Positions 14,333-32,269 of a DNA stretch of 38,816 nt are shown here, piece by piece. The stretch covers positions 1 through 38,816 of the IMG/VR virus record IMGVR_UViG_3300043100_000005; one strand, given 5' to 3'. The notes under the pieces were generated by a model. That model ran no database searches. It was not told the origin of the DNA and saw only the letters and a program-made list of their open reading frames with translations. The translations under genes were made by a program, and so were the position numbers. Within the stretch, counting starts at the first letter, position 1. Every line of letters begins with the position of its first letter. This DNA is from a virus.

Positions 14333-14338
14333 TTTGGG
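14311..14338 (-). promoter_or_regulatory. Programmed -1 frameshift signal (tail chaperone G to G-T)
   Basis: CCCAAAC is in the correct phase (xxC CCA AAC) two codons before the G stop. A 7-base spacer (CGCTGAC) and a hairpin GCGCC-GGAT-GGCGC follow. This matches the known X XXY YYZ rule and the conserved G/G-T arrangement of long-tailed phages. Confidence 0.8.
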
Positions 14339-26600: not shown

Positions 26601-27188
26601 TCAGGAACCCCGGCTGACGCGCCGCCTGCGGGCCACGCCCTGAGGCGAGTACCCCGAGATCAGCCCCCGCTTGTACATGTCCCACGCGGGAGGGTCCAGC
26701 ACAGAGCCGATGAGCCAGTCACCGGACTTGACCACGATCCCGTCGCCGCAGTCCAGGTCACCCCACCGCCAGATGAACGTCTCGACAGGCGTCGCCGCGC
26801 CCTCCGTGCCGTCCATGTGGAACGCGCCGACGTGCGGCCCGGAACGCATGAACGACCATGCTGCTTTTTCGAGCTCGGCGGCGGTGAAGAAATCACGGGC
26901 GCCGTCCGCGCCCTTGGCGATGCGCAGCTCCGGGCCGGCCTGGTAGGCGACGCCGAGCAGGAAACGCTGCTCTTCGACGGTCTTGCAGACCTGGAGCGAC
27001 GGGCCGGGGCGGGCGCCCTCCGGCACCGGCACGCCCGGCGCGGCCTCGACGTGCAGCTCGTCCCCGAGAGCACACCCGCACACGCAGTTCCCGGCCCCTG
27101 ACGTGACATCGCGGGCGTAGACGTGAGGCTCGGCGTACTCGTTCGGGAACGGGCCGATGGAGCCCTCGCAGCCGGGGATGCCGTCCAT
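26601..27188 (-). CDS. XkdF-like prohead protease
   Basis: 195 residues from ATG at 27188, after GGGGGTGACCGC. After a Cys-containing leader (GAGNCVCGCALGDEL), residues about 75-195 match the XkdF putative serine protease domain: EEQRFLLGVAYQAGPELRIA, FFTAAELEKAAWSFM, HVGAFHMDGTEGAATPVETF, GDWLIGSVLDPPAWDMYKRG and ISGYSPQG. It should process scaffold and capsid. Position between MuF and scaffold genes agrees. Confidence 0.8.
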   Translation of the reverse strand: MDGIPGCEGSIGPFPNEYAEPHVYARDVTSGAGNCVCGCALGDELHVEAAPGVPVPEGARPGPSLQVCKTVEEQRFLLGVAYQAGPELRIAKGADGARDFFTAAELEKAAWSFMRSGPHVGAFHMDGTEGAATPVETFIWRWGDLDCGDGIVVKSGDWLIGSVLDPPAWDMYKRGLISGYSPQGVARRRRVSRGS

Positions 27189-27203
27189 GCGGTCACCCCC
27201 TGG

Positions 27204-27209
27204 CAGAAT
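27204..27209 (+). promoter_or_regulatory. -10 box (CAGAAT) of leaderless island 9
   Basis: CAGAAT, 7 bases before the ATG at 27217. First position is C rather than T. Confidence 0.5.
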
Positions 27210-27216
27210 CGGGCGC

Positions 27217-27576
27217 ATGAGCGAAGAAGACGCGCCGGAGGGTTACAAGCTGCTGCTGGTGCCGGCGGAGCGCATCGAGCAGACCGAAGCCATGCGCCGC
27301 GACGGCAACGCGTACGTGATCCGCGACAAGCACGGCGTCGCCTGCCTGGGGCCGTTCGAGGTGGTGGGTGAAACGGACTCGGTCGGGCGGATGGTTATGT
27401 CCGGGCAGGTGTTCGACGGCATCATCGTAAAGCGGGGGCCTGGTGGCCCTGGCAAGCGCCAGCGCCTGACCTGGAACTTTTCTGCCGACCCGCCGCTGTG
27501 GACGTGCTCAAGCTGCGGGAGCGGGCTCGTGGGCGGCATCCTGGCGCATCACGACTCATGCACGGAGGTGCGATGA
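27217..27576 (+). CDS. Small protein with C-terminal zinc-finger motif
   Basis: 119 residues. MSEEDAPEGYKLLLVPAERI is followed by a beta-type domain and, at the end, C97xxC100 with H111, H112 and C115 (WTCSSCGSGLVGGILAHHDS), a likely treble-clef-like zinc site. First gene of the four-gene island 9. The next gene starts at its stop (ATGA). Function unknown. Confidence 0.7.
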   Translation: MSEEDAPEGYKLLLVPAERIEQTEAMRRDGNAYVIRDKHGVACLGPFEVVGETDSVGRMVMSGQVFDGIIVKRGPGGPGKRQRLTWNFSADPPLWTCSSCGSGLVGGILAHHDSCTEVR

Positions 27577-29024: not shown

Positions 29025-29804
29025 TCATGACGCCGGCACCGTTGCGCACCGGCAGCCATCGTGAGCAGGTTCCGTAAGGTCACCCGAAGGGAACGGGTCG
29101 CCCACGCGGACAGGCCCGGCTGCGGCGTTCGCGTCGCAAACGGGACACACTCCGGCGTCCCCCTCCGTGATCCAGGCATGGCGCTCAACCTGCCGGTGCC
29201 GGTACCACGCCAGCGCCGCCGCGCCGATCGCGGTCACGATCTGCCCGAGCGCCCCGGCTGCCGCTTTCACGGTGTCGGCCAGTGCGGTAATCAGCGTCTT
29301 GCCGGCCGCCGCCGCGGACAGCCCGGCCGCCGCGCCCTCGGCGAGCAGCCGCCCGAGCGTGACCGCGATGCCGTGCGCCATCTGCTGCGCTGCCTGCCCT
29401 GCGCCGGCGAGCGCCGCGGCGAGCTGCGGGCCGAGGCCGAGGTTCCCGACCGCCGCCGTCGCCTCGGCCGACGCGCCGGGCTTCCACTTCCCGGCCGCCG
29501 GCTTGCCGCCGTCCGTCATCACCTGGCCGGAGACCGCGCCGATCAGCCAGCCGTCCGTGATGATGCCGGGCATCAGCGGGGCCAGCGCCGCGGCGAGATC
29601 CGGGCCGCTGTTGCCGAGCCACAAGGCTGCGGCGGCGGTCGCGTCGCGTTTCTTCTGGCCCTGCTGCGGCGGGTTCGCCGCGGCGTAGGCGTCCGCGAGG
29701 CGGGTCGCCTGCGCTTCGGTGAGCGACGCCGACAGGGCTTGCGTGATCTGGCCGCCCCAGTAGTCAGCGGCGGGGAGGTCTAGAGCCCATCCGGGCCACT
29801 CGCT
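29025..29804 (-). CDS. MuF-like head morphogenesis domain, expressed as portal fusion by -1 frameshift
   Basis: 259 residues beyond the slip. Reads SEWPGWALDLPAADYWGGQI, an Ala-rich helical body, and a C-terminal MuF motif: CPVCDANAAAGPVRVGDPFP, then HDGCRC. The frame has no ATG or GTG in its first 60 codons; the only usable codon is TTG at 29624, which would cut away the aromatic-rich N-terminal part. The frame is open back to the CCCAAAA heptamer in the portal gene, where a -1 slip would create a portal-Nudix-MuF protein of about 1,081 residues. MuF proteins sit at the portal inside the head and are ejected or help assembly. Confidence 0.75.
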   Translation of the reverse strand, partial: SEWPGWALDLPAADYWGGQITQALSASLTEAQATRLADAYAAANPPQQGQKKRDATAAAALWLGNSGPDLAAALAPLMPGIITDGWLIGAVSGQVMTDGGKPAAGKWKPGASAEATAAVGNLGLGPQLAAALAGAGQAAQQMAHGIAVTLGRLLAEGAAAGLSAAAAGKTLITALADTVKAAAGALGQIVTAIGAAALAWYRHRQVERHAWITEGDAGVCPVCDANAAAGPVRVGDPFPSGDLTEPAHDGCRCATVPAS

Positions 29805-32269
29805 TTTGGGGCCGCATCAGCCGCCTTGGCAACCTTACCGGTCTGCGCCGCAACACTGTCATCAGGTGAAGCGCAGCCGAGAGCGGCCGTCACGGCGCCG
29901 ATGCCGGCGAGCAGCTCGGGCCGTACCGCCGGGTTGCCGGGGATTGTCGCCGGATCCCACCATGCAATGGATTCGGCCTGGTCGCCATCGGGGTCATCCG
30001 GGTCCGGGATCATGGTGCCCGAGCGGACGGGCACCATTGCCTCGCGCTCGATCGTCCACACGATGCCCTGGTAGATACCGGACGTCCACGAGCCGGTCTG
30101 CACTCCGGGGGCGCACGCCGTCCCCGTTTCCTCCTGCCACTCCCGCCACGCGGCGGCCAGCGGCGACTCATCGCCTTCGATGTGGCCGCCCGGGAATTCC
30201 CAGGTCCCCGCCGCCGGGTCGTCGGCACAGAGTGCCCGCTGGAGCATCAGCACGCGGCCGGTGTCCGCGGCGAGGACCGCCAGGCCGGCGACCGCGACTT
30301 CACCGGCGTCCTTGCGGACGGCCAGCCGGCCGGAATCGTTGAGGTTATGAGCGGCGGTCTTGCCGACGGCGGTGAACGGGAAGTCGCGCCACTCGCGCTC
30401 GCGGCGGCGCGCCTGCCGGTAGGCGCAGAACACGGCGAGCTCGGACTTGGCGACCCGCTCGCGGTCGCCGTCTTCCTCGCCCTCATCGCCCCGGTCAAGG
30501 TCGTAGCCGTACAGGCCGGTCTCCGCCGTGATCCCCGTTGCCGGGGCCGCGCCGTCGCCTTCCTTGGCCACCGGCTTACTGCCGTCGCCGTCGTCCGCGC
30601 CTGCCGGCTCGTCCGCCGGCATCGGCTGGGACGGGGGCATCGGGGGCAGTGCGCCCGGCCCGTACTCTTCCACCGCAAGCGGCGTCCCGAGGACAGGCGG
30701 GTTGGAGATGACCCCCTCAACGTCGCTGAACGCCGTGTCCGGCAGCACCGCATCGGCGGCGGGGGCGGCGGTCTCCGGGTCGATCTTGCCGGCCAGGGCG
30801 AGGAACGAGTTGAGCGGGATCGGGCCGCCGCGTTCGGTAAAGAAGATCCTGCCCACCCTGCGCTGCTCGTCGACGGGGAGGCCGAACCGCATTTCCCTGA
30901 TCTCGTCCGCGTCCACGACGGCGGACTGAATGTAGATCTGGTCCGACTGCGCCTGCACGAGACGGTCATCCTGGTCTTCGCCGCGGTCCCACTCGAATTT
31001 AACCGGCACCCGGATGTCGTCATAAAGGAACTGGCTGAGGATTTCCTCGGTATATTCCATCAGCGGCAGCTCGCCGGCCTTGTGGGCGACGTCTGCCTGG
31101 CTTTCCCCGGTGGAGTAATTCGAGGAGTCCGTGAATCCCAGGTCTGTCGGGACGACGTGGTAGCCGGCGCAGGTCTTGCGCATCATGAACAGCGAGAACG
31201 CGTCAGTGAAATCCCGCTCGTTAGTCCACGAAATGGAACTCCCGCCGGGCATCCACCTGATCTGGTGTTTCCTCGCCGCGTCTCCGTACATGAAACTGTC
31301 CCAGTAGCCCTGGAAAAGCTCAATCTGATCCGGTGTCCACGATTCCGGCGAGCTTGCGAAAGCCTCCGGGATATTTCCTTCCGTGTATCTCTGAAGGAAG
31401 TGGATCTGCGTCCGGATGTCCGTGTTGGCATTCAGGATGACAAGCTCGATCGGCGGCTGCCCGTAAATCGAGTCATTGACCGGGCGCATCGGCTCGTAAA
31501 TGAGGTCGTCGGGTGTCAGCCAGTTCCAGATCAGCCCGTTGACGATCTGGACGTGGCTTGGCGCCGGGGCCCCGGGCTCGTCGCCCCAGTAATCGAGGAG
31601 CGGCGCGAGAGTCGTGCCGTCAATTGTTTTCAGGCCGGTGCAGCGGCCGGCCCTGTTCCGGAGGCGGAAGAGCGCCCCGGCGTCGTAGGCGAGGACGTCG
31701 TACAGCCAGCGCGCCAGCCAGTTTTTGAAGTGGTGGCGCCCGTCGGGCTTGCGGAGTACCTGCTTGGCCAGCTCGACAGCGCCGGTCACGTCACCGCTGT
31801 AGCCGTCGGCGGGGACGAGCCGGTACTTGACGGACCGCAGCGTGTCGATGCGGTGCCAGATGCACATGCCCGCCACGTCATAGGCCCTGATAAGGCCCCG
31901 CAGCGTCTCGAAGCTGACCCGCTCGTGGAGCCGCGGGCGGGTCGCCACGTTGACGCTGGCGGGGAAGTCGCGGGTGCGGGGGGTGCGGGAGTACCCGTCG
32001 AACGGCGGGAGGGGCGTACCCGGGGCGAACGGCGACCCGGGGGTCATCTGCTGGAGCGCCTCGGACGCCTCGATGCCCGGGGGGACTCCGGTGCCGGACA
32101 TCTTGGCGACGGCTGCCGAGGGCACGACGACGGGGGCTGCTGCGCCGAGCTGCTGCCGCTGGGCGGCGAGCATCCCGGCGACCTGCTCGGCCGTGTAGGT
32201 GACGCCGCCCGGGCCGGTGTAGGCGGAGGGGCGGATCGCGCCGTGCGGCCGGCCTCGGCGCTTGCCCAT
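29780..32269 (-). CDS. Portal protein with C-terminal Nudix hydrolase domain
   Basis: 829 residues from ATG at 32269, 6 bases after GGGGGAGG; the longer frame is shadow of the plus-strand gene. Residues about 90-560 are a portal: DVAGMCIWHRIDTLRSVKYR, TPDDLIYEPMRPVNDSIYGQ, LILNANT-type helices, RDFTDAFSLFMM and EEILSQFLYDDIRVPVKFEW. An acidic, Pro-rich linker follows. Residues about 655-800 are a Nudix domain; the Nudix box is complete: GHIEGDE, seven residues, then REWQEETG (695-717), with E713 and E714 positioned for metal binding. A -1 slip near the end adds a MuF domain. Portals form the 12-mer DNA channel; a Nudix domain here would place up to 12 hydrolases at the vertex. Confidence 0.85.
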   Translation of the reverse strand: MGKRRGRPHGAIRPSAYTGPGGVTYTAEQVAGMLAAQRQQLGAAAPVVVPSAAVAKMSGTGVPPGIEASEALQQMTPGSPFAPGTPLPPFDGYSRTPRTRDFPASVNVATRPRLHERVSFETLRGLIRAYDVAGMCIWHRIDTLRSVKYRLVPADGYSGDVTGAVELAKQVLRKPDGRHHFKNWLARWLYDVLAYDAGALFRLRNRAGRCTGLKTIDGTTLAPLLDYWGDEPGAPAPSHVQIVNGLIWNWLTPDDLIYEPMRPVNDSIYGQPPIELVILNANTDIRTQIHFLQRYTEGNIPEAFASSPESWTPDQIELFQGYWDSFMYGDAARKHQIRWMPGGSSISWTNERDFTDAFSLFMMRKTCAGYHVVPTDLGFTDSSNYSTGESQADVAHKAGELPLMEYTEEILSQFLYDDIRVPVKFEWDRGEDQDDRLVQAQSDQIYIQSAVVDADEIREMRFGLPVDEQRRVGRIFFTERGGPIPLNSFLALAGKIDPETAAPAADAVLPDTAFSDVEGVISNPPVLGTPLAVEEYGPGALPPMPPSQPMPADEPAGADDGDGSKPVAKEGDGAAPATGITAETGLYGYDLDRGDEGEEDGDRERVAKSELAVFCAYRQARRREREWRDFPFTAVGKTAAHNLNDSGRLAVRKDAGEVAVAGLAVLAADTGRVLMLQRALCADDPAAGTWEFPGGHIEGDESPLAAAWREWQEETGTACAPGVQTGSWTSGIYQGIVWTIEREAMVPVRSGTMIPDPDDPDGDQAESIAWWDPATIPGNPAVRPELLAGIGAVTAALGCASPDDSVAAQTGKVAKAADAAPKASGPDGL
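29785..29810 (-). promoter_or_regulatory. Programmed -1 frameshift signal (portal to MuF)
   Basis: CCCAAAA (29810-29804) is in the portal phase xxC CCA AAA, eight codons before the portal stop. A 7-base spacer GCGAGTG and a GCCC-GGAT-GGGC hairpin follow. The plan is the same as at the tail chaperone site (CCCAAAC, 7 bases, hairpin with the same GGAT loop). Confidence 0.7.

Follow-up and report, generated by a model that had tools for sequence, protein, structure and literature searches.

A conserved slippery heptamer ahead of the MuF domain points to programmed -1 frameshifting in phage portal genes

Introduction

The locus described here bears on the question of how MuF-bearing phages put so few copies of MuF at their portal vertex, and it poses another: how is a MuF domain translated when it directly follows a portal gene, lies in the -1 frame and has no start codon near its beginning? 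The subunits of a portal ring are generally taken to be all alike, and a portal gene with two products would touch on that picture. The stretch of DNA that we analysed, called the window below, is IMG/VR record IMGVR_UViG_3300043100_000005, positions 1-38,816 (38,816 nucleotides), with a G+C content of 70%, and its portal-MuF region lies at 29025-32269 (-). A preliminary description of this DNA proposed that ribosomes slip into the -1 frame at a CCCAAAA heptamer near the portal stop and so extend some portal proteins by MuF. Here we examine the junction in the window phage, follow it through related loci and weigh the other ways in which such a layout could arise.

Results

Layout of the portal-MuF junction in the window phage

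The zero-frame product of the portal gene (29780..32269, -) starts at ATG 32269 and ends at the stop TAG 29782-29780, giving a portal protein of 829 aa with a C-terminal Nudix domain. Pfam matches in this product to Phage_portal (2.6e-13) and NUDIX (7e-16) are both over the gathering cut-off, and PF04860 (Phage portal protein) scores 50.3 bits against a curated cut-off of 39.1. Near the end of the gene lies the slippery heptamer C CCA AAA (29804..29810, -), which reads GCC CCA AAA GCG in phase with the portal frame and is immediately followed by G, as it is in 74 of the 77 relatives introduced below. A 7-nt spacer, GCGAGTG (29797..29803, -), and a candidate 3' stem-loop, GCCC-GGAT-GGGC (29785..29796, -), come next. 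The MuF (SPP1 gp7-like) domain is encoded in the -1 frame (29025..29804, -); this frame opens four codons upstream of the slip, where it is preceded by TGA, and from the slip it continues for 259 open codons, beginning SEWPGWALDLPAADYWGG, to a stop at 29025. The predicted trans-frame portal-Nudix-MuF protein (29025..32269, -) has 1,081 aa. An XkdF-like head protease gene (PF14550) is also found in the head module, at 26601-27218 (-).

These results agree closely with the preliminary description. The heptamer is perfectly phased near the portal stop, exactly at 29810-29804, and the fusion has the predicted size of about 1,081 residues. The MuF frame, described as open back to the heptamer and free of ATG and GTG ahead of its conserved-looking section, offers no ATG, GTG or TTG until TTG 29624, codon 60 after the slip. 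The placement of the heptamer before the portal stop was also right, but the distance of eight codons was a loose count, as seven sense codons separate the heptamer AAA from the TAG. The tail assembly chaperone signal noted in the same genome (14311..14338, -) does share the layout: it consists of C CCA AAC at 14338-14332, a 7-nt spacer and the stem GCGCC-GGAT-GGCGC, with an identical GGAT loop.

Identity and predicted fold of the MuF segment

With the MuF domain alone as query, no match was found in phage records or genome contigs, and relatives were reached by portal-based and alignment-based searches instead. In-frame portal-MuF fusions have a C-terminal part to which the 259-residue -1 segment can be aligned over its full length. 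PF04233 (Phage_Mu_F) matches 16 of the 25 aligned members, and the segment of Arthrobacter phage Sonali reaches the cut-off of the SPP1 gp7 family (TIGR01641); the window's own domain falls under the TIGR01641 cut-off (5.7e-4), yet aligns throughout. At the family level both a family match (PF04233, TIGR01641) and the Cys-x-x-Cys ... His-x-x-Cys tail expected of MuF are found. An AlphaFold model of the window segment has a mean pLDDT of 95.9 and shows ordered helices from residue 6 after the slip, and a Foldseek search of this model against the PDB gave no significant match.

The predicted fold bears on the idea that ribosomes reinitiate behind the portal stop and make MuF as a protein of its own, from TTG 29624 or some unusual start within the -1 frame. 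Overlapping phage genes commonly use reinitiation, and a TTG is indeed present at 29624. However, this TTG lies within helix three of a fold that is predicted with confidence and starts right after the slip, so that initiation there would remove two helices and part of the third. None of the 11 loci with a split gene has a plausible MuF start close to the junction: the first start codon past the slip, where one is present in range, comes after 38-78 codons, within the conserved domain, and lacks a clear ribosome-binding site. In 66 other relatives the domain is fused in frame to the portal. Among the relatives we saw no case in which the heptamer had been lost and MuF formed a separate gene with its own ATG. 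We consider a separately initiated MuF protein very improbable.

Conservation of the heptamer among relatives

About 100 related loci were obtained by protein-based scans of IMG/VR and bacterial genomes, and Arthrobacter phage Sonali and Mufasa8, both members of the window's portal-MuF family, were taken from phage records. Removal of near-duplicates left 77 relatives, the window included, a set chosen for bearing one of three heptamers, and in these 77 the heptamer stands in phase at the junction, as CCCAAAA in 71, GGGAAAA in five and CCCTTTA in one. This is the comparison that the preliminary description had suggested as a check.

The conservation is seen most clearly at the level of nucleotides. 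The gene regions of the 77 relatives add up to 242,827 bases and contain CCCAAAA 71 times, always at the junction and in the same phase. Elsewhere in these genes lysine is written AAG 1,607 times and AAA 194 times, CCA makes up 294 of 6,043 proline codons, and the other Pro-Lys pairs, 74 in number, are never written CCA AAA. Column entropy is 0-0.35 bits over eight nucleotides (CCCAAAAG) and rises to 1.3-1.9 in the flanks. It could be argued that Pro-Lys is kept for the sake of the protein, as a linker or a protease site, and not for the ribosome, and 71 of the 77 relatives do have Pro-Lys at this place. Against this stand the codon choice, which no other Pro-Lys pair shares, the C in the wobble position before the heptamer codons, and the exceptions themselves, which are Gly-Lys (GGA AAA) and Pro-Leu (CCT TTA) and so retain the heptamer but not the residues. 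GGGAAAA alters all three X bases jointly and CCCTTTA all three Y bases, and the X XXY YYZ class stays the same. Since the class of the heptamer is constant while the residues vary, and since its codons are rare in these genes, it is the nucleotides and not the residues that are conserved, and a purely protein-level constraint is extremely unlikely.

Ten portal-bearing loci do not have one of the three heptamers. Four of them (L018, L020, L058 and L095) are on contigs that end before the junction. MuF has been lost or replaced in L041, L048 and L068, where it is missing, reduced to a Cys-rich tail or exchanged for another domain, and none of these three has the heptamer. L102 and L103 are Bacillota prophages with a different heptamer, and L050 has MuF in frame and no heptamer. 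In the distant loci L145 and L146 an in-phase heptamer was likewise not found, which together with L050 indicates that the signal is not indispensable. Portals that are more distant still (THSA-485A, Polewnik and MMB025) have no clear junction heptamer and carry MuF-like Cys-His tails in frame. The pattern of the 77 relatives recurs in loci fetched later (L132, L133, L136, L137, L139, L140 and L142). An apparent absence of the heptamer in L047, L073, L009, L014, L083, L085, L092, L094 and L137 came from too narrow a search range and was not real. Host-genome searches by order and class returned only the starting genomes.

Two architectures that exchange the default frame

Two layouts are found among the 77 relatives. 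In the split layout, seen in 11 loci including the window, the portal frame stops 9-25 codons past the CCA codon and MuF follows in the -1 frame, never in +1. In the in-frame layout, seen in the other 66, MuF is fused to the portal frame, and it is the -1 frame that stops, 1-25 codons after the slip, with a median of 4 codons, where other codons in these genes give a median of 54. The MuF Cys-His motif accordingly lies in frame 0 in 56 loci and in -1 in another 10; no locus has it in +1, and in the loci outside this count the motif is cut by the contig end or is a variant. Three features of a -1 site of the X XXY YYZ type are found together at these junctions, namely a heptamer in phase, a -1 frame open to a domain or to a near stop, and conservation beyond that of the protein. 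As MuF is either in -1 or in frame with an early -1 stop, a slip would yield portal with and without MuF in either architecture. The proposal that frameshifting serves to extend the portal by MuF consequently would hold for the 11 split loci, but not as a general role, because in the 66 in-frame relatives a slip would end the protein early.

A tree built from 520 columns of the portal core shows nine changes of layout, at least seven of them on well-supported branches. This is a quick tree in which some branches are long, and any recombination that separated portal from MuF would raise the number of changes. The window's nearest relative, L009, is 88% identical over the portal and is an in-frame fusion with the same heptamer; where the window has Nudix, it has a 2'-5' RNA ligase-like domain. 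An in-frame neighbour this close could suggest that the window has an ordinary portal-MuF fusion whose frame was broken by gene decay or by a mistake in sequencing or assembly. But the same junction as in the window is present in two other IMG/VR contigs, the eleven split loci are distinct and all in -1, two isolate genomes have a split portal-MuF with another heptamer, and the heptamer is kept in the in-frame class, which errors would not lead one to expect. Error or decay is hardly credible as an explanation. In actinobacterial phages the split form is known here from metagenome contigs alone, several of which are independent.

The domain between portal and MuF varies (Nudix, 2H phosphoesterase, both or none), and the heptamer stands constantly before MuF. 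A domain resembling 2'-5' RNA ligase or 2H phosphoesterase replaces or adjoins Nudix in L009, L083, L085, L047 and L137. The more distant L142, L144 and L146 have the order portal-MuF-Nudix, with CCCAAAA before MuF kept in L142 and L144. In L092, L094 and L137 what follows the junction heptamer is not the usual MuF type but a different, longer C-terminal domain, which is helical and has a Cys-His tail. The portal ORFs of L017 (1380-2549) and L021 (5840-6934) contain insertions of 365-390 aa; that of L017 matches Hint and intein C-terminal splicing domains and that of L021 gives a weak Hint match, and both are probably portal inteins, located at differing sites. The spans of the matches in L054, L078, L081, L082, L086, L089 and L091 suggest more of these.

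Stem-loops and other elements around the heptamer

The 7-base spacer and the GCCC-GGAT-GGGC hairpin of the preliminary description are both present, but in the window phage the hairpin by itself is weak evidence. About 15% of the in-phase positions in the window gene have a stem as good as that of the junction, and much of it is attributable to codons for a conserved WPGW motif. In many relatives the stem is strong. Stems scoring at least 15 and placed 4-10 nt downstream are found at 42% of junctions versus 5.5% of other in-phase positions, and in a subset of 11 the pairing of a 7-bp stem reaches 98.7%, compensatory changes are seen at two positions, and a shift of the partners against each other abolishes the stem. 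Stem strength in in-frame and split loci (47% versus 9% above threshold) did not differ significantly in a rank test (p = 0.22). An upstream Shine-Dalgarno-like match of the AAGGCGG type is present at 60% of junctions versus 16% in the background, which conserved Ala-Lys-Ala codons may explain.

The position of these stems, 4-10 nt downstream, suits slippage of the ribosome. Slippage of the RNA polymerase at the A run would give similar products, as described for Thermus dnaX (PMC5009743), and has to be weighed as another source of the second form. Yet the run is of four A only, the entire C CCA AAA is conserved together with its phase, and GGGAAAA and CCCTTTA serve as alternatives, so we judge transcriptional slippage very unlikely.

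A different heptamer in two Bacillota prophages

L102, a prophage of Alicyclobacillus contaminans, and L103, a prophage of Sporolactobacillus kofuensis, have a portal that is about 37% identical. Their portal ORF ends in ...TTT TTC TGG and a stop, with a T TTT TTC heptamer three codons ahead of the stop. In -1 a MuF-like frame extends over 344 codons in L102 and 324 in L103. A GTG directly after the slip is a possible start in L102 and has no counterpart in L103. That such distant loci have another heptamer at the same place argues for the two-product output as the thing under conservation.

Discussion

Our analysis leads to the conclusion that the portal gene very probably carries a programmed -1 site before MuF, by which one mRNA would give two portal proteins sharing their N-terminus, one with and one without MuF. 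The frameshift reading put forward in the preliminary description gains strong support from what the relatives conserve: the heptamer and its phase, the -1 direction and the lack of start codons. For the window phage it predicts the short portal-Nudix protein from ordinary reading and the 1,081-aa portal-Nudix-MuF protein from a -1 slip. In most relatives the ordinary frame would give the long form, and a slipped ribosome would meet a stop within a few codons and release the short form. By analogy with established X XXY YYZ sites, the Pro- and Lys-tRNAs would slip in tandem from CCA AAA to CCC AAA. That ribosomes slip here, that both forms are expressed and that they stand in a certain ratio is what we infer from the sequences.

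It is less certain, and we only suppose, that the virion takes up both forms and so has a mixed portal ring, and that this may serve to restrict or fix how many MuF domains the portal vertex carries. The preliminary description expected the fusion at the lower rate; the repeated swap of the default frame hints instead that neither form would be very rare, or that efficiencies would have been re-tuned after each flip. We are evenly divided over a fuller proposal, in which the ring is deliberately mixed, a slip of substantial efficiency sets the subunit ratio, and this ratio is near parity or tolerant, hence the seven to nine default flips. A conserved signal for two portal products would imply that in some phages the portal is mixed by design. 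The relatives also form a natural series in which the frameshift signal is retained and the roles of the frames are swapped, which is useful for studying the evolution of recoding. Present annotation misses the predicted -1 products at about 80 loci, among them in-frame "portal-MuF fusion" genes that look intact. For example, the records of Sonali and Mufasa8 annotate portal-MuF as a single in-frame gene and leave the heptamer and the early -1 stop unannotated.

The preliminary description named no portal-MuF fusion made by frameshifting, and a search of open-access journal papers that combined portal or MuF with frameshifting or stoichiometry found no report of one. The word "portal" is absent from the available part of a 2016 review of recoding. 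Portal-MuF gene fusions themselves are known from Microbacterium phages EA3, EA5, EA8 and EB (PMC7302621), and one is annotated as gene 3 of Arthrobacter phage Sonali. These have the domain pair on one protein, as in the window, but are annotated as single in-frame genes. In SPP1, a few copies of gp7 (MuF) reach the procapsid via the portal protein gp6 (PMC6316719). Portal and MuF cooperate there as well, but as products of two separate genes and with no frameshift.

Close precedents for the mechanism come from other phage genes. The -1 frameshift of the tail assembly chaperones gpG and gpGT (Xu, Hendrix and Duda 2004, cited in PMC7302621 and PMC6316719) is a conserved slip in a morphogenesis gene of tailed dsDNA phages, and its heptamer type and layout are those of the signal at window position 14338. 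It belongs to the tail module and extends a chaperone, whereas the portal-MuF signal is in the head module and would extend the portal itself. Virion proteins in two forms are described for phages A2, PSA, A118/A500 and T3, and for SPP1 as gp17.1* (PMC5009743; PMC6316719). They resemble the portal-MuF case in that a structural protein has two forms, with frameshift and in-frame extension being interchangeable. Those capsid and tail extensions are mostly Ig-like or other domains on major shell or tube proteins, however, and here MuF is on the portal.

Outside phage genes, a close comparison is dnaX of E. coli and other bacteria, whose tau and gamma products are likewise made from one gene by a -1 slip and have a common N-terminus. 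As in the 66 in-frame relatives, the long form of dnaX is read in frame and the slip leads to an immediate stop, and according to PMC5009743 some bacterial dnaX genes are reversed, with the frameshift making the long form. The gene and the heptamer are different, and here the default frame swaps repeatedly within one phage gene family. Products near 1:1 are expected of a dnaX-type slip, and the likeness of portal-MuF to it is one of anatomy only. Compared with these systems, the predicted portal-MuF frameshift puts a known mechanism to a new use; its signal is widespread within a single phage family and shows an unusual evolutionary exchange of frames.
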